Of a stretch of 64,000 nucleotides of DNA, positions 8,719 to 64,000 are shown one piece after another. Position 1 is the stretch's first letter. Every line of letters begins with the position of its first letter. Made by a program: the position numbers and the translations under genes. Under the pieces are notes generated by a model. That model was not told where the DNA came from. It made no database searches and saw only the letters and a program-made list of their open reading frames with translations. The stretch comes from Brassica napus (lineage: Eukaryota; Streptophyta; Magnoliopsida; Brassicales; Brassicaceae), in NCBI RefSeq assembly GCF_020379485.1, contig NC_063451.1, forward strand, positions 24,658,630 through 24,722,629, written 5' to 3'.

Positions 8719-8719
<1 letters not shown>
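7616..8719. other. A+T-rich DNA with a 107-bp tandem duplication
   Basis: No gene is seen. Positions about 8164-8270 and 8271-8376 are two tandem copies of one unit (AATTTGATT ... TATAAAATCCG); tract B has a single copy near 42376-42483, so the duplication arose in A after A and B separated, or B lost one. Confidence 0.7.

Positions 8720-8752
<33 letters not shown>

Positions 8753-42829: not shown

Positions 42830-42865
<36 letters not shown>
42830..42865 (+). repeat. poly-C tract (36 C)
   Basis: Uninterrupted run at the position of 8720-8758 in tract A. On the minus strand it generates a fortuitous Gly-rich frame that is not a gene. Confidence 0.9.
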
Positions 42866-42871
<6 letters not shown>

Positions 42872-43239
42872 TTTAAGGCAAATTGCTTATCCATTGGTCC
42901 AAAAATATACAACTATGCATTCGTTATAGCTTATAACCAGTACAGGGCCGGCTCAAATATAATTATATAGATAATTAAAATTGAATTAGCTAAATCGACT
43001 TCACAAAAATTGATTTAAAAATAACAATATCTATACTATTAAAACAAAATGCCCTTTTTTGAGGTGCTCTTCTTTTCTAAAAGTATTTACGTGCTATTGC
43101 CACTGGTTTATTTTAAAACATACGCTTTTAATTAAATTCTGTATTTCTCAAATTTTCTTTTAATTAAACAGCAGAAAATCCTTTTATTTAAAAAATCCTT
43201 CATAAAAGTTTAAACCAACTTCAATTGCTACAATTTAGT

Positions 43240-43290
43240 GAGCTTTTTGCAAGATTGACTCAAAACTCAAAGTCAAACCTAAAACTAACC
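43240..43290 (+). repeat. MULE left terminal inverted repeat
   Basis: Begins GAGCTTTTTGCAAG and pairs imperfectly with the reverse complement of 52257-52307. I estimate roughly 60-65% identity over 50 bp by eye, which is low for a MULE with long inverted ends and close to the weakly inverted class. Confidence 0.7.
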
Positions 43291-43758
43291 CATGCTTTTC
43301 TTGGATTTTTTTTTTGCCTTATTCACCCCCACAAGTTTATGATATTCACGAAAATACCATCATATTTTTTTATTTTTTTTTCCCGAAAATGACATTTTTA
43401 CTCTCTCACCCTCATCATCTTCAAGTAATTACAAGATTGCCATTGTGATCAATACCCCAACCACCATGAACAACCAATTTGACGCTCTTAATGCACCTAA
43501 AATTGATCTACACTCTCTCTTTCTCACTTGTTATGAACTAAAAACAACATCTCTTTCACTTTGCCTCCATATTCATCCAAAAAACTCAAGCTTTTGATTC
43601 AAAATTTTTTATGGTTTATAGAGTCATTCAAGCATACTATTCTTGGTGGGTTACTTTCGTTTGAGATTGTGGGTGGTTGGAGAAGACTCTGTGTGCTAAG
43701 GAAGTCATCTCACTAGTTTAAGGTATGAAACTGAAATTTTTTCCAGATCTGTTTGTGT
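43291..43758. other. MULE left subterminal region
   Basis: A+T-rich with CT-rich stretches (43390-43580) and no coding frame. It precedes the first palindrome array and could hold the transposase promoter or an upstream leader. Confidence 0.5.
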
Positions 43759-44634
43759 AGAAGACTTACCCGTAAGTAGTCTGGCTGTAGAAGACTTACG
43801 GGTAAGTCTTCTGGTCAAACGGACGACTTACTTTTAAGTCGTCATCTTTGTTTGTTAAAAAAGAACTAGAGAATACCCTAGACGACTTACTGATAAGTCG
43901 TCTAGGATAAATGGGTTAGTTTTGCATTTGACCGAATTGTGTCAGATATTTGACTATTCCTGGACGACTTACCAGTAAGTCTTCTCCGGGAAAACAAAAA
44001 TTTCAATATTTTATTAAATCTGGACGACTTATCTGTAAGTCGTCTCAGGTTACTTTTGCAATTGGAAAATAAAACTTAAATTTAACTTTTCCCAGACGAC
44101 TTACGCGGAAGTCGTCCAGTAAGACGACTTACTTGAAAGTCGTCCAGGATAAGCAAAGTCGTCCAGATTTAATTCCTAGATTATGGTCAAACCTTGCTTA
44201 TCTCGGACGACTTTCTTGTATGTCGTCTGCCTGGACGACTTTCAAGTAAGTCGTCTGGGTAAAGTTAAATATATAAGTTTCTTTTTCGAATTGCAAACTA
44301 ACCTGAGAAGACTTAAAAATAAGTCGTCTAGCTTTAATAAAATATTGAAATTTTTGTTTTCCCTGAGATGACTTACTAGTAAGTCGTCCAGGAAAAGGCA
44401 AATATCTGATACAATTCGGTCAAATGCAAAACTAACCCATTTATCCTAGACGACTTACTGGTAAGTCGTCTAGGTTTTTTTTTTTAACAAACAAAGCTGG
44501 ACGACTTACAAGTAAGTCGTCCTATTTAAAATTCAATTGCAAAAATGACCTGTTTGGACGACTTACTGGTAAGTCTTCCAGACGACTTACTGGTAAGTCT
44601 TCCAGACGACTTACTGGTATGTCATCTCCGTCAA
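43759..44634 (+). repeat. palindrome array 1 (upstream of transposase)
   Basis: About fifteen hyphenated palindromes of the form GACGACTTAC, two or three bases, GTAAGTCGTC occur in 0.88 kb, with variants (AAGTCTTC, GACTTTC). The last three (44555-44630) are in tight tandem at about 25-bp spacing. Spacers are otherwise unlike each other. The middle of the array is itself one long inverted repeat (43821-44522). Confidence 0.92.
43821..44522. repeat. long inverted repeat (arms about 335 bp, loop about 30 bp)
   Basis: Left arm 43821-44158 matches the reverse complement of right arm 44189-44522 along almost its whole length, including non-palindromic spacers: GATAAATGGGTTAGTTTTGC (43908) pairs with GCAAAACTAACCCATTTATC (44426), and AAAATTTCAATATTTTATT is matched likewise. 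The spacers show that this is a true foldback and not a by-product of the short palindromes. A transcript through it would fold into one long hairpin about 170 bp before the transposase ATG. Confidence 0.9.
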
Positions 44635-44695
44635 TGTTTAGTAAACTTTCATTTTCTCTATGTTTACTAATGTGTTTTATTTTGAATTTTTGTAG

Positions 44696-47000
44696 ATGAT
44701 GCGTCAGTTACATGCAGTGTATGGAGAATGGTTGTTGAATGATTGCCGTTTGGATTTTGTGGTTGATAATGTCAAAGGAGCGAGAATCATTTTTTTGGGG
44801 GAAGGTTCGACACATGCTGAACTTCTTGCAATGGCTCAAGAAGATTATAACCTGGACATGAGCACAGAATCTGTGGAGATAACCTACTCATTACCAGCAG
44901 AAATGATGCAGGCTCCAGACACCCCTCCTATTCATGTTACAAGTGATAGACAAGTTCGAAACTTGCTCGAGATAACCAAAACGCATGGAGTACGGCTTTG
45001 TGTATCAAGCCGTAGCAAGGTGGAAACGGTTTCAGAGTTCAGGGAAGATGATGAAGCTGATGAATGTTTTGAAGATGATGATGATGATTTGGTTGAAGAT
45101 GAAAATCATGACGGGAGGAGGACGATGGGGATGAGGACGATGGGGAGGAGGATGCTGGTATCTCTATTGTTGCTGAAGCGGACGAGAATGGTGAGGATTA
45201 CAGTGTTTATGGAAAGGTTGAAGATGAGGATGAGGAAGATGATGATATGTGTTTTGAAGATATCGAAAAGATTGAAGAAGTAAGATCGAATGGTAACAGT
45301 ATCTATGTCAACCAGAGTTTTGTTAGCAAGGATGCACTGCTTTCAGAGCTGCGGTTGACAGCAGTGAGGTTTAAGTTCTCCTTCAGAATATACAAGTCAA
45401 CGAAAACTCTCCTTGTGACAACATGTCCGGTTAGTGGTTGTCAATGGAAGGTCAGAGCGAGTGTGAAACATGGGACAAACACGTTTTGGGTAACAAAGTA
45501 TGTGGAAAACATACATGCTCAGCGGGAGACCGACTCGCTCAGCGGAGACACTATACTCCGAAGTATGTTGGTAGGCTTTTCATTGATCGTGTTGGAATCA
45601 TTGATGGGTTGAATCCGAAGCATATCACTGATGCAATGAAGAACATGTTTGGCATGACGCTTGATTACACCACTTCATACAGAGCACTTTTATATGCACA
45701 AACATTGGTGAGAGGATCAGCAGAAGATGGGTATTCGCGTCTGCCATCATATCTCGAGCAAATCTCCTTAGCAAATCCCGATTCTATCACGGCTATAGAA
45801 CTTGATTCTATCAATAGATTTAAGTATCTATTTCTCTCTTTTGGAGCTTCTATCAAAGGTTTTAAGTATCAGAGAAGGGTCATTGTGGTGGATGGGACTC
45901 ACCTAAGTGGGAAATATGGAGGTGTTATGTTAGTTGCAGCCGCACAAGATGGGAATTTTCAGATATTTCCATTGGCTTTTGGGATCGTAGATGCTGAAGA
46001 TGAACCTTCTTGGGAATGGTTTTTCACAAAATTGGCTAGTTGTGTATCTGATGAGCAGCCTCTGGTGATAGTCTCTGACCGGCACGCGGCCATTAAAAGT
46101 GCGTGTGATAAGGTGTTTCCTTGGGCAACCCGAGGAATATGTTATTATCACCTTCAAGATAACATTGTCAAAAAGTATAAAGGGAAACATCTCTTGTACT
46201 TGGTGAAAGGTGCTGCTTATGCTCATACGGTTTCAGATTTTGACCGGTACATGGCTGAGATACGGAGTGCAAACCCGGACCTTGCAACGTATTTGGAGAA
46301 TGCCGACGTCAGCCTATGGTCAAGGGTTTATTGTCAGGGGGACAGGTACAACATAAAGACAAGCAACATCGCTGAATCTATTAATTCCGCTCTGAAGCGA
46401 GCTAGAGGATTTCCGGTTCAGTTCCTGTTGGAGTTCATAAGGGAGAAGCTAGGAAAGTGGTTTTGGAAAAGGAGAGAAGATGCTTTGAGTCTCCCAACTC
46501 AACATAGTCGAGGTGTTGAATACTTGCTTGCTGTTCGATCGGAGATAGCGGATACGATGACGGTACAACCAATTGATGGATGGCGATTCTTTGTGAAAGG
46601 TGGGAAAATGGACTGTGTGGTTGATTTGGAACATGGAAAGTGTGATTGTGGTGTCTATGCAGTGGAGAAAATACCTTGCTCTCATGCTATAGCTGCTGGA
46701 GCATCTGTTGGTTTGCATATCTCCACACTTGTATGTCCAGTGTACTCAAAGGATTTTCTGTTTGTAGGATACTCAGAGAATATATATCCTTGTGTTGGAC
46801 AACAAGTTGAGGAACGCACATGCTTTCCTCCGGAAGTAAAACGTGGTCCGGGAAGACAAAAGAAATCAAGATGGCAATCTTGGTTGGAGCTATCCAGGAT
46901 GAGAGGACGCAAACCCCGGAAGCAACACAAGGCTTATAGATGCTCAAAATGCAAGGAAACTGGCCATACGAAACCACAATGTAAGTCGTCCAGTGATTAG
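44696..47000 (+). CDS. MuDR-type transposase (mudrA-like), two frame breaks
   Basis: Cut-and-paste transposase. Part 1 (44696-45110): an N-terminal PB1-like region (RLDFVVDNVKGARIIFLGEG) and an acidic stretch. After a one-base shift near 45110 the frame continues acidic, then a MuDR DNA-binding region (FVSKDALLSELRLTAVRFKF ... TTCPVSGCQWKVRAS). A second one-base shift near 45515 joins the long frame to 47000. It holds the MULE catalytic domain with D in VVDGTH (45891-45893), D in VSDRHAA (46077-46079) and E in SNIAESINSAL (46374-46376), a SWIM zinc finger (CDCGVYAVEKIPCSH, about 46636-46685) and a CCHC knuckle (CSKCKETGHTKPQC) near the end. No nonsense codon is seen apart from the shifts. The last codons (KSSSD, stop) lie within the first unit of palindrome array 2. 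Confidence 0.87.
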
Positions 47001-47690
47001 TCTTCCAGAAGACTTTCCATTAAGTCGTCCAGTTAGTCGTCCAGGGTTTTTTCTTCCAGAAGACCTTCAAGTTAGTCGTCTAGTGTTTAGTCTTTCAGAA
47101 GACCTTCAATTAAGTCTTCCAGAAGACTTTCCATTAAGTCGTCCAGTTAGTCGTCCAGGGTTTTTTCTTCCAGAAGACCTTCAAGTTAGTCGTCCAGTGT
47201 TTAGTCTTCCAGAAGACCTTCAATTAAGTCATCCAGAAGGTCGTCCAGTTAGTCGTCCAGGGTTTTTTCTTCCAGAAGACCTTCAAGTTAGTCGTCCAGT
47301 GTTTAGTCTTCCAGAAGACCTTCAATTAAATCGTCCAGAAGGTCGTCCAGTTAGTCGTACAGTGTTTAGTCTTCCAGAAGACCTTCAATTAAGTCGTCCA
47401 GAAAGTCGTCCAGTTAGTCGTCCAGTGTTTAGTCTTCCAGAAGACCTTCAATTAGGTCGTCCAGAAGGTCGTCCAGTTAGTCGTCCAGTGTTCAGTCTAT
47501 GTACTAAAAATTTGTGTTATGAACTTATCTGTGTCAACTTCTTTGTCAAATTGCACTACCAAACAAATTTGAGATGGTCTTGCCCTTTATATTATCCGAA
47601 ATATAGTTACAAAAGGTCACTGCTCAGAAGACTTTCCAGACTACTTACAGTTAAGTCGTCCAGACCACTTAACTGTAAGTCTTCTGCGCA
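46984..47690 (+). repeat. array 2: tandem repeats between transposase and Ulp1 genes
   Basis: Half-palindrome units AAGTCGTCCAG alternate with TCTTCCAGAAGAC and TTAGTCGTCCAG in higher-order tandem units. Toward the right the unit settles at 63 bp (47335-47490). Because the unit is a multiple of three, a repeat-encoded frame (SLPEDLQLSRPEGRPVSRPV) stays open for over 160 codons. A further inverted pair lies at 47625-47690. The array is in the convergent 3' region of both genes. Confidence 0.9.
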
Positions 47691-47799
47691 TAATATAGTT
47701 ACAAAATAGGGATCAAGTTCAAATACGAAATAGGGATCAAGTTCAAATACACACATCAGCCTAATCTATCATACAAAATCATCTAAAGTGGCCTGTTTA

Positions 47800-50700
47800 T
47801 CACCCGTCATACGTACCCAGGATGTCATCCATGTCCTTGTTTTCGAACTCATGCGCGTCAGGAAGCTCTTGAAATATATCCACCGCCATCTTATCCCTCA
47901 TACTCTTCCCGTTGGCCTTAGCAAAGTCTTTTTTACTAAACTCTATCCCAAGAGCATGACATTCAATGTACTTTAGAGTGTACACGCCACAATCACCAGC
48001 TCGGGCCGGAGGTATATTGGTCGGTCTCTCATATGTGAATGGCTCCAGGCTGTATTGGGCACGTAGTTCGTCTGAGGAAGCGCACTCAACAAGCAGATAA
48101 GGGACCATGTAGAGAAAAGGCTCCATTACCACATCGAGTTCTTCTGGGGAGATACTGGAACAAATGCTGTCAAAGACGACTATGTGCCTCTTAGGGATCG
48201 ATATCCAAATAGCAATCCAATGACTGTCGGCGAAGTTTACTGGCGCATAGATATCATCAATATCCGTCCCCCAAACTTGCTCGATTGGCAAAATGATGGT
48301 ATAGTGCATGCATAATAATTCCACGCCCCACCAGGGAGTCTTCTTCCTAAACCGTTTTGATCGGGCTTCGAGTCCTTAAAATCCTTGAAGTTGAATCTCC
48401 ATTGCTGAGCAAAGAGATGATCAAGGATGCACATTCTCTCGCTCCTGAAATGTTGTGGGTTAGCGTTGTACCTCTTCCTCAGCACATTAATCCAAGCATC
48501 AATATGCTGCATATAAAATAAAGTACAAGTCAGAAGATGTCAGATGACTTAGTGGTAAGTCTTCTACGTAGATGACTTACCAGACGACTTACAAGTTAGT
48601 TGTCTACGTCATAGCAGAAGACCTACACAGTCCTCCAGCCACTCTAGGGAGGGTTCGGAGGATTTGATACCACCAAGTTCTACTTTTACGTGGTTTTTTA
48701 TCGAGAGCTGTTCTATAATAACTGCAAACACAAAATGTTGAAAAGCAATCAGGTTTTATTGGAAAAGCAAGCTATTATGTGAAAAGCAAGCTATTATGGG
48801 AAAAGCAAACACTTACGGACAAGATTTCAACCACTCAGCGAGCTCCTTCAACTTATTCTTGTCAATTGGTGCATAAGGATTATAGCCTGGATAAAGCTTT
48901 CTGTTTGAAATGATCACTCTGGCCGTCCTGTTTGCCGTATAAGGAGATTTCTGTGATCGGGCAAGTTTCCTTGTTCGATCACTCTTTGCACGGCAAAGTG
49001 CCAAAGCAGCATCCTTCTTTTCTAGATATCTAGCATCCTCCTTCTGTAAATCTGAAACAGTGGATTGATTTTTGTCCAATAGAATAAGGCTCGGTTCTGG
49101 AGCTTTATCTTCCAAGGAACTAGCATCTGCGGGCACAGCTGCGGGCACATCTGCGGGCACATCTGGACCTTTATCCTCCGCCAAGCTCTTCCTTCCCGCG
49201 TTCGTCCCATTGACACTTTCACTCTGCAATATACAAGATGGGTTTATACAATAATAACCAATGAGTGTCTTCAAACATGAAACAAAATACATATATAAAA
49301 TCCAAGGATTTGTTACTGACCCCGAGTTCGAGCGTCGGTTTAGGTGGAGAGGTAGTGTTTTGAGATGATGTCCCTTTCCGTTTTGTGGTGATACCAACCT
49401 TCTTCTCCACAGCTTCCACCCTTTCCGACAGATACTTGATCTCCTTAAGGCACGTCCCAAACCCTTCCCTCATGGCATCAGCTATGTCCTTGAACATGGT
49501 TTTAATATCCTCTTTGGTCAAACCACCAACAGTCGTAGTCACCTCTTCACTAGCCTCTGCAGCTGCCTCTTCACTAGCCTCTGCAGCTGCCTCTTCACTA
49601 GCTTCAGTAGGTGCCTCTTTACGAGCTTTCTTCCGAGGTCTTGGACTGTCTTCCTTCACTACCTTTTTCTTCGCTGGACTCACAACTGCCGACTTTGTAT
49701 TGACCCAAGTACCGGTGACTTCCCAGCAATCCATGGTCCACTTCCACGGTTTCTTCACAAACATGAGTTTAATTATGTTCTCCGCGAGCGGGTCCTCAAC
49801 ATCAAACTCCCATTTTGGAAACATTTCACCAGTGTCCTTTTGAACAAAGTTGATCACCCTAGTCTGCAGTAAATAGAAGATATGAACTTAGATATTTGAC
49901 GGATTAAGAAAGATGGAAAGAAAAGACTTCACAGACGACTTATAATTAAGTCGTCTGGAAAGTCTTCCAGCTGGACGACTTAGTAGACGACTTATAATTA
50001 AGTCGTCTGTAAAGTCTTCCAGCTGGAAGACTTAGTAGAAGACTTATAATTAAGTAGTCTGGATAGTCTTCCCAGACGACTTAATTATAAGTATAAGTCT
50101 TCTACTAAGTCATCTAATTGGAAGACTTATCAGACGACTTAATTATAAGTTTTCTGCGAAGTCGTCCAGATTGAAGTAAATACCTGACTGAGGATAGCCT
50201 CTTTAAACTGTCTGCGTTCTTTGCGACCCTTGTAAGCCAGTATCGGGGGAGACAGATTGTTTGGGAGAGGATTACAAAAAGTAGCACCCAATTCCGGAAG
50301 AGCTGTGTACACCCAGACCTGGAGAGCTTGCGCAAACCCATTAATAGTGTAACAACCCGAAATATTCTGCCCTTCACAGAGTCCATCAGCACCTTAAACG
50401 CGACTCTCCCCCATGGATAATTCTCAAACCGTTCTAGCTCCATCACTAGCCTTGCCAGACTAACCCGTGTAGGGGTTGAATACTTTCTCCCTTCAATGTA
50501 TCCAGTGAAGATGGCAAGGTACGCGAGCCGCTTGCGATCATCCCGAGACCACCCTTCGCATCTCTCAAGTGCTGCTATTATCTCCTGAGTAGATGGCCCA
50601 GCTTCGACATGAACTCCCAGCATATCCCAAAAAGAAGTCAACTCCTTTGTAACAACAGAGTGAGGTCTCTCAAGGTCCTCGATGTACTCGCAGTTTAGAC

Positions 50701-51019
50701 CAGTGAGGTGTTCAAACTCTAACAGTGAAAACCTCACAGGTTCTGGACCAACAAGACTCCACAGCTCATACTTCTTCTTTATGTCCAGCTGGAAACCGAG
50801 CATGTAGTGAACCAGCCTTGAAGCCCAATCAAATCCCAGCTCTTGGAACTTGATGAAAACTCCCAAATTCGACTCCTTCAGCTCTTCATATTCGTCATCA
50901 TGAAGAGCTTTCTTTAAAGCAGCATGCAACGTCCAACAAGTATGATACGAAATGCTATGCACTGCGGGGGGCTCTTTCCCTAATGTATATATCCTACGGG
51001 GGAGTTCTGGCATCTCCAT
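47800..51019 (-). CDS. DUF1985-Ulp1 (C48 peptidase) protein, five coding exons, three single-base indels
   Basis: Exons on the minus strand: 51019-50184, 49863-49321, 49223-48817, 48721-48627 and 48506-47800, all with GT-AG introns. Exon 1 encodes DUF1985 (SRLVHYMLGFQLDIKKKYEL ... FEHLTGLNCEYIE). Exons 2-3 are a low-complexity linker with Ala/Glu repeats and Lys/Arg-rich parts. Exon 5 is the Ulp1-type cysteine peptidase: His in FADSHWIAIWI (48220-48222), Asp in VVFDSICSS (48169-48171) and Cys in AGDCGVYTLKY (47989-47991); the oxyanion-hole Gln is not evident. Exon lengths are out of phase by -1, +1 and -1 at about 50373, 48650 and 48280, exactly where the reading frame slips. With these allowed for, about 860 codons result and no nonsense codon is seen. 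Ulp1 enzymes remove SUMO; KI-MULE copies are thought to have element-related or co-opted roles. Confidence 0.82.
48531..48620 (-). repeat. array 3: palindromes in intron 4 of the Ulp1 gene
   Basis: AGATGACTTAGTGGTAAGTC and GACGACTTACAAGTTAGTTG are two units within the 118-bp intron 48507-48626. Confidence 0.85.
49925..50168 (-). repeat. array 4: palindromes in intron 1 of the Ulp1 gene
   Basis: Five to six units of GACGACTTATAATTAAGTCG type fill most of the 320-bp intron (49864-50183). The centre is TATAATTA in place of the TGG or TAG seen in array 1, so arrays carry their own sub-variants. Confidence 0.88.
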
Positions 51020-51072
51020 TTTTTTTTGCCTGCCTGCAAAACAATCAAAGACAACCATCTCAAACAATCAAA

Positions 51073-51192
51073 GACTTATAATTAAGTCGTCTGGCAAGTT
51101 TTCCAGCTGAAAGACTTATAATTAAGTGGTCTGGAAAGTCTTGGAAGACTTTCCAGACCACTTAATTATAAGTCTTCCAAGACTTCCAGTTT
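51073..51192 (-). repeat. array 5: palindromes in the 5'UTR intron of the Ulp1 gene
   Basis: An inverted pair around GGAAAGTCTTGG / CCAAGACTTTCC and further AAGTCGTC half-sites lie between a donor at 51246 (GTAAGTTATATC on the minus strand) and an acceptor at 51034-51035. Confidence 0.8.
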
Positions 51193-51246
51193 TATGTTCA
51201 TCTTTTCCTCAATCAATCACTCGACAGTAAGAGATATAACTTACCG

Positions 51247-51500
51247 GCGGCAGAGTTCAACGAAACACCTCTGAGAGAATGCGCGCTAGGGTTTCCTCTC
51301 GGATCTTAAATAGAGGAAGCGGCTGTGAGAACGGTGATGAGAACGACGGTGATAACGGCGGAGAGATAACCGGCGGTGAGAACGATGAGAACGATGGATT
51401 AGAGAGAATCGACGGAAATCGCCTTCGAAATCGCCTTTGAGAGAAACGGCTTCTGATTTTCGATAAATAGTGAAAAAAAACATCTTATATATGGCCAGTA
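51247..51500 (-). promoter_or_regulatory. promoter and 5'UTR exon of the Ulp1 gene
   Basis: On the minus strand CATATATAAG near 51490 is a likely TATA box. The region down to the 51246 donor is G+C-rich with repeated GGCGATTTC and CGTTCTCATC motifs, as in a 5'UTR exon. Confidence 0.5.
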
Positions 51501-51554
51501 AATAATCCGGTTAGGTTTAAAAGTACATTGTAAAATTAAAGGTTTGGTCCGGTT

Positions 51555-51620
51555 TGGACGACTTACTAGTAAGTCGTCTGTTGAATACTGTACATCAGAC
51601 GACTTACTAGTAAGTCGTCC
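51555..51620. repeat. array 6: palindromes upstream of the Ulp1 promoter
   Basis: Two full units, each a near-perfect palindrome with the centre TAG (GACGACTTAC and GTAAGTCGTC arms), separated by about 18 bp. Confidence 0.9.
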
Positions 51621-51999
51621 CAGACCCTAAATTTAACCCCTAAATTAAATTGACTAAATTAATTGACTAACCACGTTATAAACCCGTAGTTATACTTAAA
51701 TAGTGTTTTCTATACACAGAATTAAAACACTTAGGTAAATTTTAAAGTTTTCAAAAAAACATTTATGCATTCCAAAATCTAACCCTAAGAACACATACAA
51801 TACTACAACATATGTTGGCAAAACCTAAACCAAAGAATATCATGACTCACTACTTTCACTCATCTATGTTGAAAACAATTAACTTTTGTTATATCTTAAT
51901 TTATATCTCTTAAAACATATGTTAATTACATGATTTCAATTTTTCGCTTATCAAAATATTTTTTAAAAAATTTTTAAATTATTTCTAAGTAAAACTAGT
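51621..51999. other. MULE A+T-rich spacer
   Basis: No gene or motif; contains none of the palindromes. Confidence 0.6.
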
Positions 52000-52150
52000 C
52001 CAGATAAGTCGTCTGGACGACTTTCTGGTAAGTCGTCTGGACGACTTTCTGGTAAGTCGTCTGGACGACTTACTGGAAAATCGTCTGGACGACTTCCTGG
52101 AAAGTCGTCTAGACGACTTACTGGAAAGTCGTCTGGGCAGACGACTTACG
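52000..52150. repeat. array 7: 24-bp tandem palindromes near the MULE right end
   Basis: Six units with 24-bp period (AAGTCGTCTGGACGACTT core, centre TCTGGT or variants). The frame on the minus strand (SSRRLTRKSSRRL) is a by-product of the period being divisible by three. Confidence 0.9.
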
Positions 52151-52256
52151 GGGGTTAGAAACGTAAAATAATTTCGGTTTTTTTGTTTGTTCACAAGGGG
52201 TTGGTTGTAATTTCAATAGCCTTTTAGGTTACTTTTGCATTTGATTCAAGTTTGGG

Positions 52257-52307
52257 TTAACCTTTGTGTTTGAAATCAAGTTGTGAGTCATATTTGGCAA
52301 TTTTCCC
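52257..52307 (-). repeat. MULE right terminal inverted repeat
   Basis: Read on the minus strand it begins GGGAAAATTGCCAAATATG. Pairs with 43240-43290. Confidence 0.75.
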
Positions 52308-53836
52308 TAATTTAGTTATTGAAATGGATACAGGATATATGGAGAAATCACGATACCCATTTTGTATGTTTAATCAACAATATCTCTCAACTTCCATATT
52401 AAAAGGAATGTTGTTATTTTGCAAAATTAATAGCTTAATGTAGTTGACCACAATATATGCAAACTTCACGTTTTAATTGACCACCATAGCTGAACATCAT
52501 ATCTGACCACCACGGTTAATATGCTTCACCATTTAGTTTTTAGCAAAAAATATTAGCTTAACGTAGTTGACCACTATAATTGTATAGTTCTATAAAATAT
52601 TGATGAAAATATTAATGAAATATTAATTATTGGTAATATTTATACACACGTAAGAAAATAATAATATAAAACTATTAATTTGTAACAAAACAATTATTAC
52701 GTTACTCTCTAAACATTTTAAAAACCAAACCAAGATCGACTCCGTGTATATATTGGTTGACTGGTCTGACCAGTTTAACTCGTTTAACTGGTTTTTAAAA
52801 CTTTATTGTATATTATGTATGTATATATACCATATGCTTTTAGAAAAAAAGGAATTCTATATGAACTTAAATTATTGACATACATAAGATTAACATTCAA
52901 ATCACAATGTAATTTTTTTCTTACAACAAAATTTCAAATCTTATAGTAATGGAAAAATTTGAAACATATAATATTTAGATGAGAAGTGGGAATAAGACTT
53001 ATAATTTTTTCATATATAGAAAAAACTGTGAAATAATATGTGAAAACTGAAAAGAAAATAACTAGTAATCACTAATAGCTTCATAACAAAATTCTTAGAA
53101 CATTTAAAAGACTATAAACTATGTTTTAGTTTTGCAGAATCCGAAATTTTTTTTTATCCAGACTATCGTTTTACTGATTTTTCCAGTTTTTTTCAAATAC
53201 AGTTTTTATTGTCCCAAGTCATCGGTTTTACTGAATTTTCCAGTTTTTCCCCAAATCCAGGTTGACTGGCCTGGCCCATTTAACGAGTTTTTAAAATTTT
53301 ATTGTATATTATATATGTATATATACCATGTTTTAAGAAAAAAATTGAATTCTATGTGAACTTAAATTGTTGACATACATAAGATTAACATTCAAATCAC
53401 CATATATATTTTTTCTTACAACAAAATTTCAAGTCATCGGTTATACTGGATTTTCCAGTTTTTTTCCTAATCCCAAATTTTAAACTGAATCGAACTCAAC
53501 TTATTAGACAATACATGGTCAGACTGTTTTCGACTGGTTGGTACGGTCTGGTTTCCAAAACATTACAATATTTATAACATAAAATATCATGCGCTTTCAA
53601 AGCGCGGGTCAAAATCTAGTATATAATATTAAAAGACAAGACTTTTTTTTGAGGTTCCCTTGATTTTCAAACTATATTACAGGAGATGTGCCATTTGCTA
53701 TTTAATTTTAATATATTGATATTATTTTTGAATTAAGAAAACAAATATTCTCAAAATCGTGTTTTTCAAGTGTCTAACAATACTAACCAATGACATTCAT
53801 ATGTTGTTCTCTTAATTAATTATTATTGAATGTATA

Positions 53837-54524
53837 TCTTATCTATTAAAATAGAAGTCATAACTTAGTTCATGTGTGAGTTTTAATTTGGACCACCCCT
53901 TAGAAAGTTGTTTAAATTATATTTTTTTTATAAATATATGAATTATTCTAAAACAAAAAAATCAAATAGATATTCCTATATTTTCTCTGAAATTGTATAT
54001 GAATAAAATCTTTTCATATCTTTTTTATTTAAAATATAAATATATTATTAATTTTCATTAAAATTAACCTTTTAAATATTTAATTAATTTTGTATTTATT
54101 TAGATAAATGTATATTTCAGTCTTCACCTAATATTTTTTTTATAAAATATTTTTTAATTTCGTGTTTATTTAAAACTTAAATGTATATTTCATTTTAAGT
54201 AAAAAAAATTTTAAATATCTAATTAGTTTTGTAATTATAACTAAATTTGTGATATTAATTTAATATAATAATTTCAATTAAAATTTTGATCCTTAACCAA
54301 TAATATATTTCAATTCAGAATTTTGTATCACATAATATAAAATATGCTATCACTGAAAATTAAAAACAAAATATTGTATGTGAACTATAAAATTGTTGTA
54401 TTTTAAAATATTATGTTAAACAATTAGTAATATTGCAAATATTACAATTAGTCACGTAAAGAAAATAATTATGTATCTACAAATAAAAATAATCACCCGC
54501 ACGGTTGTGCGGGTGAAGATCTAG
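53837..54524 (+). mobile_element. Helitron H2, copy B
   Basis: 5' end TCTTATCTATTAAAATAG; 3' hairpin CCCGCACGGTTGTGCGGG (54496-54513) followed by CTAG at 54521-54524 and T. Flanks GTATA and TTTCAG join to give the empty site seen at 24929. Confidence 0.9.
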
Positions 54525-54713
54525 TTTCAGTTAAAATAGTAATACCGTAACTACATTTAATTCATTTGATATAACTAATTCTTAGTAGTTTAGTGTTATT
54601 TGGACCGGAGAGAAACAAACAAAGAAGATGGTGATTAAAAATACATGTATCTCCACTATTTTGATTACCGCAAACAATTTTGAGAATGGATTTCCGCTTT
54701 CTCATTATTACTT
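54525..54713. other. tract B sequence with a 300-bp deletion relative to A
   Basis: The junction near 54598 joins points equivalent to about 11660 and 11955 of tract A. Confidence 0.6.
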
Positions 54714-54727
54714 GACATTTATTTTAA

Positions 54728-55118
54728 GAACTTTTTTTTTGCCATCTATTTTTATTAAAAGGCCAAAGTCCATAACCGAAAAAGATAGAAAATCCGAAGG
54801 CCCAACCGAACACCAACCCCTACAAACGGCATAAAGCCCACCAAGCTTAAACCGGCCCAAAAACCCGACTAAACACATGGTTGTTTATGTATAAAAGAGA
54901 AAGACACGTGTACCCCTCAACAGCGAGGATTCTACGCGTCACCTAACCTTCTACGTTCACCGACCCGAACTGATCGCCGGAAACTGACCGGCGCCAAAGT
55001 CGGAATCAAGCGCTGCTTTCCGTACCTCCACATCAGAGATTCTTCTCACGGAAAGCGCCCATCGGCCAAGCCGAGATCTACTCCGGATCACCACATCACC
55101 CACACGGGATTTAATCCC
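54728..55118 (-). mobile_element. small retroposon, copy B (391 bp)
   Basis: Same insertion as 12143-12535 with the same 14-bp duplications (54714-54727, 55119-55132). Insertion therefore predates the A/B duplication. The G-box CACGTG near 54905 and TATAAAAG are kept. Confidence 0.75.
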
Positions 55119-55132
55119 GACATTTATTTTAA

Positions 55133-57740
55133 TAACTTACAATCAATCACTATATATAAAATAAAATTTAACAAATGTTAGAATATAGAAAATATGATTG
55201 ATCATATAAGACGAGATAAGATGCTTTGTCGATCACATATCTGGACAAGATTGTAGTTGTCAGCCCAAAATGATTTGAAACTACCTGATAATTCTATGGT
55301 TAACTATAGTAACTGGGTTACACTATTTTAACGTAGGCAGACCAATTATTTAATTCAATTAAAATGGGTTATGATAATCTAATCTACATATAATTAAAAT
55401 GATTTATTGTATAGTAAAAAAACTCAAATAATAGTTTGCTATAAGTTGACAAAAAAAATAGTTGCTATAGATACAAGAAAGTACAGATTATCAAAAGTTA
55501 TAATATTTACAGTAATAGATATTTATAAAAATAAATCAAATGAGGTTTCAAAACTGAAAAATCCTACTCTTTCAAAGCAAAATCTAATTATAGTTAGATT
55601 ATTCAAATATCAAAAACCTGTTAGCCCAAATTTAGTATAAGCAAACCCAAATAACAATAATCTATGTATATTTTATTATCAAAAACAATCCATCTATAAT
55701 TAAATATCTATAAAGTTTTCAATTTTCCCTGTTTGACATAGTGTTACATTTTACAAACCGCTTTATCAATTATATATATATATATATATAAATTAACAAA
55801 TTACTAGATTTTGACTCGCACTTTAGTGCGGGTTTTATTCTTTCTATACTAAAATATTTTTATTTATATAACATAATAATTATTATGTACCAATACTATT
55901 TTACATAATTTTTTGTATTTTGTAAAAAAAAATATTTTGTAAACATTATTATGTAACAATACTATTTTACATAATTTTATGTTTCATTTCTAAAATTTAA
56001 AATTTATATGGAAATTAAATTAAATTGAACCTATATAATAGAGAATAAATTTTTGGGGATACTATTAGAAACATCAAAATTTATATTACAAAAGAAACTA
56101 TAATATTTTTTTAATTGCAAAATAATGTTTTAGTAACGATCTTATTTGAGAAATTGCTTAAAATACATTAACTTGGATAGCATTTTAACAAAAACTCAAT
56201 AAAAGATATCATAACATTTGAGCTTAGGTTTAACGATTATTGTTTAGGATTTATTACTTAGGTTGAGTTTATAAATTTCTGTAAATAATTTTTATATATT
56301 TATAAATGTTTTGGGAGAGTTAATTTTGTCTTTTACTAATAAATTTAAGATATTTATGAAAAATGATAATAATTGTAAAGTAAATTTTAAAATAGTATCA
56401 AATATAATGTAAGTTTAAAATTTGTTGGAATTGTATTATATACTGTAACATTAAACCCGTTTGATAAATGTGTGTTCTTTTCACATATAATAGTGTTGTA
56501 ATATTAATCTTTTGACACATGTAGGTCATTCATGTTATAACATTGGTATGTATATGATTATATAAGTCTAGTTTACAGTTACCGCTGGTGGAACTATTTA
56601 GAAATCATATGCTATACGTAAATACAATTGTTTTTGTAGTGGCCCCATACCACAGAGTAGTAGTTAAGAAAGAGAGAAAATCTGAGTGGAAACTGAACTT
56701 GGATCATCATCAAATTAAATTTAACCGCCTGACACTTTTTCTAATCGACCCAATAAGACATCTTTCATAACGAAAACTTTTCCAGCAACGAACTATATAT
56801 CTGTAATGATATAATAAGTTTGTATATTTCATTTTTTAAGTGGCGACGCTGCAGTAAACGTTTATAAAACTTTAGAATATGAAATACGCCGTATTTGACA
56901 GTATTTAAAAAATTTAAAAAATTTAAAAAATTTAGAAAATTTAAAAGATATGCCGTATTTGAGAATAAAAACTTAATAATGAGAACATATTTAAAAAGAT
57001 CCATTTTACTTGATAATTCTAAATTTTGTACCTAATCAAAATTTTCAAATAACCAATTTGACTAATCTTGACGATGTTATTTTAGATATATATAACTAAA
57101 ATGCTATTAGAAAATTATTTTTAAATTATGTATGATATTACATATTTTCAACTGAATTTTACCTTAAAGTATTTTTCTTTAGTAAGGATTTGAATTATTA
57201 GATTTGGTAATAACATGTAAATTTAAGTATTAGTATTAAAAAAATTAAAAACACCTTAGATTTTTCTTATGAGAAAATTGTAATAGGGAAAGTTTCAAAA
57301 GAATATTCTTCAAGTTTTGTATGTAAAGAAAAACATTTAGACAAGATAACAATGTTCTAAAAAAAAAGTTCATACAAAATAAAAATCCTACATATAATAA
57401 AATGTTAAAGTCAATAAGTTAAAATAAAATTAACTTGATAATATTAGAAATACAAGAAATGCAACTACTCATTCTAACAAATTACTCACTTTAATAAGTA
57501 TAGTATAAATATTTTACTAAAAATGCATGATGAATATTTATATATCGGTTGAGAAATTAAAAATCAAGACTACTTATATAACGGGTTGGAAATTTAAATA
57601 TAGTTATCATTTATGACCAAAAACCTATCAAAACATCTCAAATATTATTTTCGCAAATATATTTTAGTGATGGAAAATTTGATTATATACTTTAGTATCA
57701 AACCCGACCAATGAAAGGCTACTAGCATTTCCTTTACCAC
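55133..57740. other. A+T-rich DNA, right part of tract B
   Basis: At 55804-55830, CTAG followed by a hairpin CGCACTTTAGTGCG and the run GGTTTTATTC is the 3' end of a minus-strand Helitron whose 5' end I could not find. Short tandem (AAATTT)n-like repeats lie at 56907-56945. No gene. Confidence 0.55.
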
Positions 57741-57784
57741 TCGGTGAGTCACACTTTTGATTATAAGCAACTCATTATCTGCAG

Positions 57785-58068
57785 TAAATCACAGTTACAG
57801 AAAGGGTCACATCACAAGGGCAAAGCTACAATGAGTGAGTGCTCCCAGGAAAATGAATCACAAGATGCAGATTATATCTCTGTCAAAGATGAGTACTGAC
57901 TTGAGAAGCTTAACCATGATACGAGCTGCACCAAGAACAACTAGACGGAAATCCCTTTTCACTACAGCATACTTGTGCAATACAGTGACTTGAATATAAG
58001 CAATGTCAGCAGCCAAAAATCAGAATTCAAGACCATGCATAGAGACTAAACTCAGTGAAACCACAAGA
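57785..58068. repeat. conserved 270-bp fragment, copy 2 of 3
   Basis: Matches 22985-23270 and 59925-60175. Here too it is followed by the myosin exons. Confidence 0.7.
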
Positions 58069-58132
58069 TTATAATGTTAAACAAACTACTACACCCTAAC
58101 TGAAAAGAGGCGGATCACATTATAATGTTCAG

Positions 58133-59050
58133 CATGTTTTCAAGATGAAGCAGGAAGAGTACACAAAAGAAGCAATAGATTGGAGCTACATTGAATTTGT
58201 GGACAACAAAGATGTTCTTGATCTTATAGAAAAGGTCTGCTTAACTGAGAAAGGACAGTGTTATCAAATTGGATGTTTTAACCTCACTTTCTCCTTTCTT
58301 TTCCATCTGCAGAAGCCTGGTGGAATCATTGCTCTCCTCGATGAAGCTTGGTAATATTGAAGACTACTTCCATAGATTTTTTATCCTGACTGTTATTTTG
58401 TAAACTAATGAGACTCAATTTTCCAGTATTTTGACCACAATATATGCAAACTTCACGTTTTAATTGACCACCATAGCTGACCATCATATCTGACCACCAC
58501 AGTTAATATGCTTCACCATTTAGTTTTTAGCAAAAATTATTAGCTTAACGTAGTTGACCACTATAATTGTATAGTTCTATAAAATATTAATAAAATATTA
58601 ATTATTGGTAATATTTATACACACGTTAGAAAATAATAATATAAAACTATTAATTTGTAACAAAACAATTATTATGTTACTCTCTAAACATTTTGAAAAC
58701 CAAACCAAGATCGACTCAGTATATATATTGGTTGACTGGTCTGACCAGTTTAACCCGTTTAACGGATTTTTAAAATTTTGCTGTATATTATATATGTATA
58801 TATACCATATGCTTTAAGAAAAAAAAAATTGAAAGAAATCAAATGCAAACTCGTATCTTTTGTTAATGCAGATTGGTAAACACAAAGATCTTCTTGAGGG
58901 CTGGTCAGATGGCTGAACTCGACCCTAGGAGGACAGAAGTGCTTAGTGGTGCTGCAAAAAAAAATCAGAGACAAACAAGAACTCATCAAGCTCAGAAACG
59001 GTTTACTGTTCTGAGAAAGGCCACAATATCTCTACAAGCTCTATGTAGAG
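58133..59050 (+). pseudogene. class XI myosin fragment, copy 2 (motor and IQ parts)
   Basis: Exons 58133-58234 ([20 protein letters not shown]) and 58313-58350 ([12 protein letters not shown]) are the same motor segment as copy 1. A third exon starts after an acceptor at 58871 and reads KIFLRAGQMAELDPRRTEVL followed by an IQ-like region (HQAQKRFTVLRKATISLQAL), the end of the motor and first IQ motifs. Between them, where the parent gene should have many motor exons, lies about 400 bp of Helitron H1 sequence (58435-58835). The central motor is therefore deleted. It cannot work as a motor. Confidence 0.85.
58435..58835 (+). mobile_element. Helitron H1 internal piece, copy D
   Basis: Equivalent to about 9470-9870 in copy A; both Helitron ends are missing. 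It is spliced between the myosin motor and IQ fragments. Confidence 0.75.
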
Positions 59051-59084
59051 TTGAGCCATCTGATTTCAATCGCGCTCTTTGGGA

Positions 59085-59452
59085 AAGGCTGAAGCATCGG
59101 AGTGCCATGTGGGCGCTGCTGGTAAGTCGCACTATTAAGGTTCAGAGGAGGAGCAGAAGGCATAGATGAACCAGAAATGAGGTGTGGTTGTGCCATCATC
59201 CGTGGGGGCCCAGAGAAAGAGGAAGGGGTCACCAGATCTGTATAAACATTGGAGTTGCTACTGATACGATCAGGATTGTTGTCAAAAAGAGGCATTAGAG
59301 GAGAGGAGGATGGTATAGGCGGTGGTGATAATATTTGTGGAGGTGCAGCTTCCGTAGGGGCAGTGGTGGGTTGATGAGGTTGTAGATGATTTGCTGATGA
59401 CATGTATGGTGGTCCAGTTGCCGATCCAGCCGAAGTGTTCCCAAGAGACATT
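59085..59452 (-). pseudogene. DCP1 (mRNA-decapping activator) fragment
   Basis: The frame from ATG 59451 reads MSLGNTSAGSATGPPY, PPQILSPPPIPSSSPLMPLF, then MMAQPHLISGSSMPSAPPL and GTPMLQPFP. This resembles the Pro-rich region between the EVH1-type domain and the C-terminal trimerisation domain of plant DCP1, as I know that family. Similarity ends near 59090, where it meets the myosin fragment in the opposite direction. Neither functional domain is present. The match is from memory of the family, not a search. Confidence 0.7.
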
Positions 59453-59924
59453 GCCTACGTAAACCAACCTCTGCTTCCTACTGAGGATCTAAACCAATTT
59501 GAAGGCCATTGTTAGTTGTTACAGATCACTACTTACAGATAAAACTATGTACTAAACTACTTATATAACTCAAAATTCAAACGCTAAGAAGAGAATCCTA
59601 ACCTGTATTCCGATGATTCATCACAATAAACTGAAACCGAGGCTGCTGCCTATTTCTGAAACAACAAGAAACTGGATTCCATCAACGATTCAAGAAAACA
59701 ATCACATATAAGTTAAAAACTTACCTCTTGACGACGAACAAAGTTAACTCTGCAACCAATTAATAGTTTGTAGTTTAAATCAAGAACGTTCATGTAACCC
59801 GTTTCAAAATGGCATAAAATTTATAAACTTCTATGAGATGATCCTCCAAAAAATAATTACAACATATAAGTCAAACATGACATGTGTTCGCTTAACACAC
59901 CTCATTGGCTGCAGTAAGTAAGAG
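59453..59924. other. spacer of the chimeric capture region
   Basis: 59750-59850 is shared with 22840-22925 (AACGTTCATGTAACCCGTTT) and weakly with 14590-14650, so it belongs to a dispersed repeat. No gene. Confidence 0.5.
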
Positions 59925-60175
59925 TTACAGAGAGGGTCACATCACAAGGGCAAAGCTACAATGAGTGAGTGCTCACAGGAAAATGAATCACAAGATGCAG
60001 ATTATATCGCTGTCAAAGATGAGTACTGACTTGAGAAACTTAACCATGATACGAGCCGCACCAAGAACAACTAGACGGAAATCCCTTTTCACTACAGCAT
60101 ACTTGTGCAAGTGTGACTTGAATATAAGCAATGCCAGCAGCCAAAAAATCAGAATTAAAGACCATGCATATAGAG
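59925..60175. repeat. conserved 270-bp fragment, copy 3 of 3
   Basis: Third copy, here without adjacent myosin exons. It ends where inverted block X begins. Confidence 0.7.
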
Positions 60176-60334
60176 ACTAAAATGGTAGATAACTGAAAAT
60201 GTTAATTAGGACAAATAATTAGAGAATTCGGCCAAAAAAAACCTCAACTTTGCATGAATTGCCAAAAGAAACATGAACTTTTGGGCTGACCAAAAAAACA
60301 CCAAACTTTCATTGACTTTAGAATTAATTAACAA

Positions 60335-61485
60335 CTAGATCTTGACCCGTGCTTTGCAAGCGTGGAATATTTTATGATGAATTTTTTTACTAATAATTTA
60401 ACAAATATTTTGTTAATTTATAAGAATATTGTGTATTTAAATCAGTGTTTTTTAGTTTTTAAAAATATCCATATTTATAATCCGGTGATCCGATAATTCG
60501 ATTTAATTTTTAAAAATATCCATATTTTTTTTAAATATTTTTAAAAAAAATACTAAGAACCGAGACTAACCGATGGAACCAATGGATGACAGATATGTAA
60601 TCCAATCTGATTTGAATTTATATTTTCATAATTTGTCACCTTTTAATCCAAATTTTAAAGTTCATTGTTTTGCAATTTTATGAAATTATGATATTTTTAC
60701 AAAATTTTGATAGAGAAAATGATAGATATAAAATAATTAAGCACTATAAATATTTCTCGATCATATTACTCCTTTTATATAGCTTAGCTAATTTTATTAT
60801 AATTGTTTTTGTAATTTATCTTGTTAATAATTTGGTTTATATTATAATCGATTTAATTTTTTTGTTAACAATCAGTGTTAAGTTTTTCAAAAAAAACAAT
60901 CAGTGTTAAGTATTTTTTAGATAACATATATTTTGAAAAAAAAATATAATAATTTTTGTTATTATATTTATTGTACAATGTATAACGTTATATATATATA
61001 TATTTATGTAATGGCTATTATTGAATTATTGTGGTACTTAAATAAATTATATAACCATTATTTAGGAAATATAAATAAAATAATCCATTAATTTAATTGA
61101 TGTATTATTGATTAAAATGTTTTTGTAGTATTTAAACGTGTAAAAATAAGTTCTACTTATTTTTTTGTTGTTTATAAATGATTTGAATTTTTCAATTATT
61201 TAATTTATCTAAATAATTTTAAGAAAATTGTTAGAAATTATTAAAAAGATGTGATCTAATATTTTATATTGTTTGGACATAAAATTAATTATAGTGTTGT
61301 TTGGAAACATGAATAATAGTATAAAGAAATGAGTACATTGTTTGGAAACATAAATAGTACTATAAAAAAAAGAATATTAGTGATTTAAGGTATGTTTAAC
61401 TATAAAGTAAAAAGATGTATTTAATTTAAAAACTTACAAAAGAAATGTTAGGTCCAACGTAATGTTTCTGTTTTAATAAGATAGA
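60335..61485 (-). mobile_element. Helitron H3 (1,151 bp)
   Basis: Minus orientation. Its 3' end on the plus strand is CTAG at 60335 followed by the hairpin region GACCCGTGCTTTGCAAGCG; its 5' end on the minus strand is TCTATCTTATTAAAACAG at 61485. Inserted in the left arm of the foldback element; the right arm keeps the uninterrupted counterpart near 62625 (GTTAATTAATTC). No protein coded. Confidence 0.85.
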
Positions 61486-61641
61486 TGTTTTCGCTGACTT
61501 GCCAATTTAGCACGTCGTCAACAAATTTAACAGAAATATTTGACGTCGTTTATTGTTGGCGTTAAGTGAAACGACGTCGTTTTCAAATGAGATGAAACGA
61601 CGTCGTTTTACATGATTTGAAATTAAAAATATGTAGACCCC

Positions 61642-61696
61642 TTGATTCGAACCCAGGTTGGTTGGTCAAATGGCAAGGAATTTTACCACTGGACTA
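61642..61696 (-). promoter_or_regulatory. tRNA-like A and B boxes, left arm
   Basis: On the minus strand TAGTCCAGTGGTAAAA (61696-61681) and GGGTTCGAATC (61654-61644) lie 42 bp apart, close to tRNA spacing. The intervening bases do not fold as a clean tRNA. Reads toward the left end of the element. Confidence 0.6.
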
Positions 61697-62491
61697 CTGA
61701 CACTTTCAATGTACTTACTAACATGTTTACTTTTATTTGGTACATATTAAATATAAAAAATTCTCTAAAAACTTAATAAGATCTTTAAAATTGCAAAAAA
61801 AAAAATTAAAAAAATAAAAAAGATTTTTATAAAATTAATTTAGAAATTAAAAATTAAAAATAAAATTTTATTTTTCTTTTTAAAAAATAAAAACTCTTCC
61901 AAAATTTTCTAAAAACTTAAAAAGATCTTTAAAATTCCAAAAAATTGAAAAAATAAAGAAATTTTTTATAAAATTAATTTTGAAACTAAAATAGAAAATA
62001 AAATTTTATTTTTCTTTTTAAAAAATAAAAACTCTTCCAAAATTTTCTAAAAACTTAAAAAGATCTTTAAAATTCCAAAAAATTGAAAAAATAAAGAAAT
62101 TTTTTATAAAATTAATTTTGAAATTAAAATAGAAAATAAAATTTTATTTTTTCTTTTCAATTCGTGAAAAGTTCGTGTTTTTTTGAAAAGAAAAATTCTA
62201 TTTTAATTTCAAAATTAATTTTATAAAAAATTTCTTTATTTTTTCAATTTTTTGGAATTTTAAAGATCTTTTTAAGTTTTTAGAAAATTTTGGAAGAGTT
62301 TTTATTTTTTAAAAAGAAAAATAAAATTTTATTTTTAATTTTAATTTCTAAATTAAGTTTATAAAAATCTTCTTTATTTTTTTAATTTTTTTTGGAATTT
62401 TAAAGATCTTATTAAGTTTTTAGAGAATTTTTTATATTTAATATGTACCAAATAAAAGTAAACATGTTAGTAAGTACATTGAAATTGCCAG

Positions 62492-62544
62492 TAGCCCATT
62501 GGTAAAATACCTTGCCATTTGACCAACTAACCTAGGTTCGAATC
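62492..62544 (+). promoter_or_regulatory. tRNA-like A and B boxes, right arm
   Basis: TAGCCCATTGGTAAAA (62492-62507) and AGGTTCGAATCC (62533-62544), 42 bp start to start. Mirror image of the left-arm pair, reading toward the right end. The B box is a perfect GGTTCGAATCC. Confidence 0.6.
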
Positions 62545-64000
62545 CAGGAGTCTAAATATTTTTAATTTCAAATCATGTAAAAGGACGTCGTTTCATCTCA
62601 TTTGAAAGTCAACGAAAACATTGTTAATTAATTCTAAAGTCAATGAAAGTTTGGTGTTTTTTTGGTCAGCCCAAAAGTTCATGTTTATTTTGGCAATTCG
62701 TGCAAAGTTGAGGTTTTTTTTGGCCGAATTCTCCAAATAATTACCTAATTAATTAATTTGTTCCATATTAGCAAATTAGGATTGGATACTAATGTGTGTT
62801 TAAATCTACGGGCTATGGCCCACACACCCGTAATACAATTTATTATAGAAAATCTATATGGATCATACTAGTGTGTGCTAAAGGCAAATCATTATGGGTG
62901 TGTCGTAGAGAAAACTAAAGTCATTTGCCTTGACGAAAGATACACTACGTAAAATTTCAAGTCATGTGTACTTCGATACGTTTTGCCTGAACGGTGCAAT
63001 CACTGTATATTTGTATATAAGGTGCATCAAACAATGTACACCCGGTTAATTCTCAATAATATTTTTATAGATTTTAGGGGAAACTTTTTATTTCAAGCTT
63101 GCGTTATGAAAATTTAAGACTTTTCTTTTTAAACTCTAACTCTTTAAAAAAAAAAATAGAAGATATGGCCGTATTTCATTATATGTTCTGTAAATTAAAC
63201 GCCAATGTGCAGAAAAAGGGTTAAATATATATGGTTTTAATTATATATAAATAAAAAAGTTAGAACAACATAAGTTAATTTCATAACACGTCTAAAGATG
63301 TCTAATTAAGATTATTTTGGAATCAAATATTGTATAATATTGTATACACAAAAAAAATGTTTTAAAAATCGGATAGACGACGCGATGGTTGGACTAGGTT
63401 TGACCATAAACCGATCATGTGATCAAGTTGGATCTAATCACTGATTCAGTCATAAACCGATCACGTATTCAGATTGAGCCTCAAAGCTATTGAACTCAAT
63501 AAAAACAATTTAAACTATCAAAAATCTAAAAACTAATTTACTTACAATGTTTTAAATCTGATATTTATTTATACATTAAGTATGCATGTAAATAGAACTA
63601 TTAAATTTTATATTAAAAACATATTTAACTAGATTGTTAAATCAGGTTTAATAATAGAACAAATATATTCAGGCCCGACCCTGAACTAAAGCCCATAAAG
63701 CAAGGATTTTAGGCGCCAAATATTATATATATTTCGAAACTGACTTCTTATACCACTATTTAATAATAAATATTTTTGTCCTTTTTGAAGATAATACAAA
63801 ATTTTGATTTATTCATTAATACAGATAGGAACAGTTAGTACTTAATCTAACAACTATAGTTTCATTATTTATACGTTATATTAAGTAGTGTGAGAATAAA
63901 TAAATAATTTAATTAAACAAAACCTAATTATTTATTTTGCTGTATTAATAACAACTAACAAACATATATTTTCTTTACGTCCTTTTTTCTGGAAAACAAA

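Follow-up and report, generated by a model that had tools for sequence, protein, structure and literature searches.

Why would a transposable element carry one short motif throughout much of its noncoding DNA and almost nowhere in its coding sequence? The question is raised by a Mutator-like element (MULE) of 9,068 bp in Brassica napus, at positions 43240..52307 of a 64,000-nt stretch of contig NC_063451.1 (hereafter the window). The element carries a transposase gene (44696..46999, plus strand) and a gene for a DUF1985-Ulp1 protein (47803..51019, minus strand), and arrays of the half-site GTAAGTCGTC lie beside these genes, between them and in some introns of the second. From the comparisons below, we consider it probable that this is an anti-silencing system of the VANC/KIU type, in which the arrays are putative operators for the element's own DUF1985-Ulp1 protein. 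This kind of system is already published and the Brassica family is an added member; what stands out in it is the geometry of its dyads, a 608-nt fold-back, deletion derivatives that keep the arrays, and a likeness to named small RNAs.

Motif arrays in the window element and its relatives

At up to one mismatch, GTAAGTCGTC occurs 77 times in the window against 1.83 expected (100 shuffles), and at up to two mismatches it occurs 108 times within 43240-52307 against 29 in the other 54,932 bp. The original prediction had described the noncoding space of the element as filled with one palindrome family, and the half-site counts agree: at up to two mismatches there are 106 half-sites in 4,099 noncoding bp versus 2 in 4,890 coding bp. 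They are spread over the left side (37 in 1456 bp), the intergenic region (27 in 803 bp), intron 1 (15 in 320 bp), intron 4 (6 in 119 bp), the intron in the 5′ untranslated region (5′UTR) of the DUF1985-Ulp1 gene (5 in 212 bp) and the right side (16 in 997 bp), while introns 2 and 3 (97 and 95 bp) have none. The last codons of the transposase had been named as the sole exonic occurrence; that match, at 46981, is indeed the only one in 2304 bp of transposase coding sequence, but the Ulp1-gene exons (2586 bp) hold another, at 48063, with two mismatches.

At up to one mismatch the half-sites form eight clusters, one more than the seven palindrome arrays first described. The left array (43760..44626) consists of palindromic half-site pairs and is mostly a single large fold-back, 43872-44479. 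Two clusters lie between the genes, at 46981..47485 and 47627..47684, and three in introns of the DUF1985-Ulp1 gene, namely intron 4 (48543..48626), intron 1 (49934..50166, a fold-back) and the 5′UTR intron (51082..51177). Upstream of that gene are two perfect 22-nt palindromes (51557..51619), and the right-end array (52004..52149) has 11 half-sites; the outer clusters lie ~520 bp inside the left end and ~160 bp inside the right one. The arrays themselves thus stand, but ‘palindrome’ does not fit the first intergenic cluster, as its half-sites are mostly in direct orientation and it forms no hairpin. The unit common to the clusters is the half-site core AGTC(G/T)TC, with a window consensus of GTAAGTCGTC(C/T)(A/G)G around it. 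The flanks are cluster-specific, and units differ by 2.94 mismatches within a cluster versus 3.45 between clusters (0/2000 permutations).

The commonest pair is convergent with core centres 15 nt apart, making a 22-nt dyad, and occurs 16 times in the window and 204 times in L035-L048. Successive half-sites (at up to two mismatches) are 12 nt apart in 62 of 107 cases. Gains and losses of DUF1985, DUF287 and Ulp1, along with motif sequence, density and helical periodicity, are reportedly covered in the 2022 abstract of Sasaki and colleagues; strict helical phasing was rejected here, since the same-strand core spacings of the window (12, 24, 39, 48, 51) differ from those of deletion copies (20, 40, 60, 11, 27) and no single period accounts for both.

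Three other copies with coding sequence (L049, L050 and L051), picked so as to include one 99% relative and two 89% relatives, repeat the contrast between noncoding and coding DNA, with 68 half-sites in 3415 bp versus 1 in 3646, 89 in 4272 versus 0 in 4817, and 91 in 3971 versus 2 in 4820. In L049 much of the transposase is missing, as is the first intergenic cluster; otherwise the cluster places agree among copies. Unit numbers vary: the left cluster has 32, 13, 25 and 26 units in the window, L049, L050 and L051, respectively, and the right end has 11, 1, 1 and 4 (at up to one mismatch).

Across the 997-Mb assembly, the palindrome occurs 4,170 times when spacers of 0-8 nt are allowed, against 0 for a reversed-pattern control; among the matches listed, all have 2-nt spacers. 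Viral contigs contained 0 stretches with the palindrome pattern. The arrays do not appear to be shared with unrelated elements, as all 14 array stretches fetched near palindromes of contig C1 (those listed first for this single contig, rather than a random sample) contain ends or further portions of elements of the family. Both ends are present in 11 of the 14, spaced 2.3-4.7 kb apart, and these 11 nonautonomous copies keep arrays without detected coding matches; tblastn of the C1 stretches found an element protein in L047 only. Perfect 9-bp target-site duplications (TSDs) flank 10 of the 11, with one-base end offsets allowed. L046 also contains, at 7621-8744, a second left end with an array, more diverged and adjoining the first element.

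Relationship to VANC proteins and their motifs

Domain scans detected MULE (PF10551, E=5.6e-23), Transposase_mut and SWIM domains on the plus strand, together with a CCHC match below cut-off, and DUF1985 (PF09331, E=2.5e-25; 50399..50809) and Peptidase_C48 (PF02902, E=4.3e-30) domains on the minus strand, in keeping with the proposal that this is a KI-like MULE. The transposase frame changes near 45110 and 45525, and the motif forms its last codons. An intact transposase relative, P0001, has 97% identity at 96% query coverage and reveals a MuDR DNA-binding domain in the transposase family. A possible 5′UTR intron of the transposase (43723-44695), placed by eye from splice signals, would enclose the left array. 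For the DUF1985-Ulp1 gene, the exons (50184-51019, 49321-49863, 48817-49223, 48626-48721 and 47803-48506) were delimited from splice signals and a family consensus; the consensus of 28 relatives reads through the exon 4/5 junction as placed, and the frame changes three times, near 50395, 48645 and 48265. The Ulp1 catalytic part (47803..48275, minus strand) contains DSHW, VFDS and GDCG, which we take to be the likely His-Asp-Cys triad. An intact relative from B. oleracea, P0123, has both domains at 87% identity and 100% query coverage. Among other proteins scanned for domains, P0028 from Microthlaspi erraticum is one predicted protein with a MULE transposase and a partial, below-cut-off DUF1985, which may be a fused gene model, and P0213 and P0221 have a weak Plant mobile domain (PF10536), below the curated cut-off, overlapping or after DUF1985.

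VANC proteins are described as containing DUF1985 and binding noncoding VANDAL DNA (PMC5735166, PMC10398659). Searched against the PDB, the window DUF1985 has VANC21, an anti-silencing protein of Arabidopsis VANDALs (entries 9lnj and 9lnk), as its sole match at E<=10 (E=0.0069; 0.07 for the best stretch alone), and VANC21 also comes first for P0123 (E=0.0015). A profile built from one window row and 17 of 30 DUF1985 loci found in this genome (alignment A2) matches VANC21 at 8.5e-17, with the next best match at 0.21. A genome search with the DUF1985 exon gave at least 151 matches (150 of 2,540 candidates scored); among the matches listed, all but seven sit on nine large contigs, which we take to be the C subgenome.

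The motifs offer a second line of comparison. VANC21 is reported to recognise YAGTATTAY and VANC6 AGTTGTCC/AGTTGTAC, the motifs being arrayed as tandem repeats outside coding sequence (Hosaka et al. 2017, PMC5735166). The C-form of the Brassica half-site, AGTCGTCC, is one base off the CC-type VANC6 motif AGTTGTCC, and 0.7-0.8% of randomly drawn 12-mers are as near to a VANC6 motif. The proposal of a new motif is not supported in that full form. The difference is at motif position 4, where VANC6 has T and Brassica has C, creating a CpG in the Brassica core; the genome has 3 VANC6-like palindromes versus 4,170 of the element type (spacers 0-8 nt in both). This one-base step between the C-form and the VANC6 motif provides a tangible example in which changes of anti-silencing specificity can be studied.

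The implied novelty of the system also gives way, since Ulp1-carrying VANC elements with their own motifs are already in a 2026 review (PMC13317346), which, citing Sasaki et al. 2022, also describes mutual recognition of motifs among KIU-carrying VANDALs. As that review describes them, the KI/KIU VANDALs share with our element a MULE transposase, an Ulp1-bearing VANC-type gene and a noncoding motif of their own (PMC13317346); ours differs from that description in its Brassica host, AGTCGTC core, 22-nt dyads and 608-nt fold-back. The Arabidopsis VANDAL6/VANC6 pair shares noncoding motif repeats and DUF1985 in VANC proteins (PMC5735166). VANDAL21/VANC21 (Hiun) is alike in that the DUF1985 of our element is related to the solved VANC21 protein and in that its motif is repeated within introns and upstream, but differs in the motif itself, YAGTATTAY, and the word Ulp1 is absent from the main text of PMC5735166. 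Among the matches listed in the literature on Brassica MULEs with DUF1985 or Ulp1, there was no title on this family.

An anti-silencing role with the DUF1985-Ulp1 product as the binder had been proposed from the window alone. It now gains indirect support from the presence of DUF1985 in published VANCs, the relationship to VANC21 and the single base that separates the C-form from the VANC6 motif. Under this model, the element would belong, within the VANDAL-like MULEs, to the KI/KIU branch as a member from Brassica, and its second gene would encode a VANC-type protein with a DUF1985 DNA-recognition part, a charged middle and an Ulp1 (SUMO-protease-like) domain. The half-site arrays of the longer noncoding stretches would serve as operators for this protein, which would coat the arrays both in the copy that encodes it and in sister copies, so that silencing marks would be removed near both promoters and both ends; the transposase could then mobilise autonomous copies as well as array-bearing deletion derivatives. 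A high-copy, putatively anti-silencing family is thus placed in an oilseed crop with its likely operator named, making VANC-Ulp1 function directly testable outside Arabidopsis.

Alternative readings of the arrays

Several results weigh against this model. In the window copy the reading frame of each gene is broken, for which an assembly error or, in the transposase, introns may be an alternative cause. Among the window, L049, L050 and L051, where dS in DUF1985 is 0.007-0.071, the ratio of nonsynonymous to synonymous substitution rates (dN/dS) is 0.85-1.04 for DUF1985 and 1.07-2.04 for Ulp1, so there is no sign of recent constraint and no purifying selection was seen on either domain between these four copies; the longer MULE comparisons among them give 0.57-0.63. 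DUF287, which a figure of PMC5735166 shows in some VANCs and which is not termed obligatory there, was undetected in domain scans of the element proteins and their relatives. A profile of 28 close relatives (A1) places VANC21 only fifth in the PDB (E=0.16), after SENP1/SENP5 and an eIF2B subunit, and an AlphaFold2 model of P0123 made with the same alignment was unusable, at a mean predicted local distance difference test score (pLDDT) of 38. The kinship with the VANC6 motif at one base belongs to the C-form alone, the T-form being two bases off, and the core is followed by C in 52% of units from the window and in 22% of those from L035-L048. Motif columns are no more conserved than others under the window mask (0.920 versus 0.915) and modestly more so under four other masks (0.92-0.94 versus 0.885-0.894), a mixed picture. 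We also rejected the idea that DUF1985 loci at large carry the motif: the 30 best-scoring loci have 0-2 AAGTCGTC per 3.4 kb, tying the motif to one family and not to DUF1985 genes generally. Finally, exclusion from exons would also follow from neutral arrays that would break proteins.

Among the other readings, one adds a second function to the operators. The left fold-back (43872..44479, plus strand) folds as a single 608-nt RNA hairpin at -401 kcal/mol, compared with a mean of -131 for 20 shuffles (z -33). Long-range fold-backs formed in seven of the eight left arrays that were folded (the window, L036, L039, L042, L046, L050 and L051), and much less in the contracted L049; three control stretches had no comparable fold-back. 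Small RNAs reported from Brassica resemble the arrays. Two of them, bol-miR9410 (1,681 reads) and bol-miR9411 (420 reads), are described with northern signals (PMC3840582), and Bro-m018 and Bro-m022 are listed as broccoli small RNAs (PMC4167151). In the window and fetched loci, Bro-m018 has an exact match in L042 and L045, Bro-m022 matches with one mismatch at 49972 and bol-miR9410 with two at 49931, while bol-miR9411 has three mismatches at best and is thus a weak match; the controls bol-miR9408, bol-miR9409 and miR157 failed to match there when up to 3 mismatches were allowed. These likenesses suggest, short of proof, that the element family feeds the small-RNA pool. In B. napus, miR9410 is reported as a microRNA in studies of hybrids and of the pod canopy (PMC10113308, PMC6722711), and one of the B. 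napus studies says that it has no clearly known function. Some ‘miRNAs’ published from Brassica are perhaps transposon small interfering RNAs, miR9410 with its resemblance to the element arrays being one example.

RNA-directed DNA methylation is reported to act on VANDAL noncoding regions that VANCs also target (Sasaki et al. 2023, PMC10398659). In the second-function reading, the fold-back arrays would both bind VANC-Ulp1 and yield silencing hairpin small RNAs (bol-miR9410, the broccoli ‘miRNAs’ and perhaps bol-miR9411), and, given the CpG in the half-site core, host methylation would mutate the operators towards a VANC6-like TpG, letting one anti-silencing specificity drift into another. We regard this as speculative and unlikely. 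Among palindromes with one altered half (2-nt spacer), AGTCATC occurs 501 times genome-wide and AGTTGTC 167 times, against 119 for non-CpG C-to-T changes and 4,170 intact palindromes (spacer 0-8 nt). CpG loss is thus raised but lopsided, though both products derive from the same symmetric CpG; this could reflect constraint on the C or else shared ancestry of the variants. The aligned left arrays of 12 copies have no excess of CpG decay, with transitions at 0.041 for CpG, 0.041 for CHG, 0.038 for CHH and 0.016 for A/T. In the window element the commonest variant is AAGTCTTC (21), which is not a deamination product and indicates that position 5 of AGTC(G/T)TC is loose.

A further candidate for the binder is the transposase. 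In Spm, which belongs to another superfamily than MULEs, TnpA has a 12-bp subterminal motif. Here the transposase would bind the arrays as subterminal and internal sites, and any hypomethylation would be a side effect; reported precedents are MURA and Spm TnpA, element-encoded proteins whose action accompanies demethylation of element DNA (PMC10398659). Beyond these precedents, the outer clusters lie near the ends, nonautonomous copies keep both ends and arrays, and a MuDR DNA-binding domain, SWIM and a weak CCHC are found in transposases of this family. The likeness to these maize systems is that of an element-encoded protein linked to demethylation; MuDR differs in that the transposase itself acts (PMC10398659). 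However, dense arrays also occupy introns and the space between the genes, far from the ends, and the motif, compared with published VANC motifs, resembles one of them, so that we think transposase binding has only a slim chance of being the explanation.

Equally slim is the chance that the arrays are neutral tandem or fold-back repeats, spread by slippage and gene conversion and purged from coding exons. Unit numbers do vary between copies, units are homogenised locally, and the window mask gives no conservation signal. This variation and within-cluster likeness can, however, be compared with the rapid repeat turnover reported at VANC targets (PMC5735166). Against neutrality, one core recurs in eight separate places, in palindromic and direct arrangements alike, for which local slippage alone is insufficient, and a published VANC motif differs from one form of this one by a single base.

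That the arrays act mainly as RNA, with the left fold-back transcribed as a long hairpin and diced into small RNAs that silence the family, would fit the hairpin, its recurrence in seven of eight left arrays and the matches of published small RNAs (but not of controls) at 0-3 mismatches, yet it is very improbable, as the intergenic array is direct and non-folding and silencing is of no obvious benefit to the element; an RNA role may nonetheless coexist with anti-silencing operators.

Element limits, flanks and other DUF1985 loci

The limits of the element rest on ends common to its relatives, on the relatives' 9-bp TSDs and on an empty site. The left TSD, caatttagt (43231..43239), matches the right one, taatttagt (52308..52316), at 8/9 positions; by eye, the TSDs of L049 are perfect, those of L050 match at 8/9, and those of L051 are perfect if the start is moved one base earlier. 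When the flanks are joined without one TSD, they give an 884-bp alignment (94.8%) that spans the junction, to window positions 9062-9932 on the plus strand, and this paralogous segment without the element is the empty insertion site. The element's two ends share only a short imperfect inverted match, judged by eye and unscored. The flanking parts of the window (1-43239 and 52308-64000) contain many duplicated segments, mostly at 90-98% identity, such as 2088/6935, 7420/41634, 29152/39916 and 52444/58431, and a run of 36 C at 42830-42865 is a genuine homopolymer or else an artefact of the assembly.

Another short sequence, TATCCGG, is present in 15 of 30 DUF1985 loci, some of its sites recurring at matching positions where the loci are related, and is possibly a candidate operator of another DUF1985 family. 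It is repeated in L014, L015, L021, L022 and L029, partly as TATCCGGATA, and three sites in L029 are 30 bp apart.

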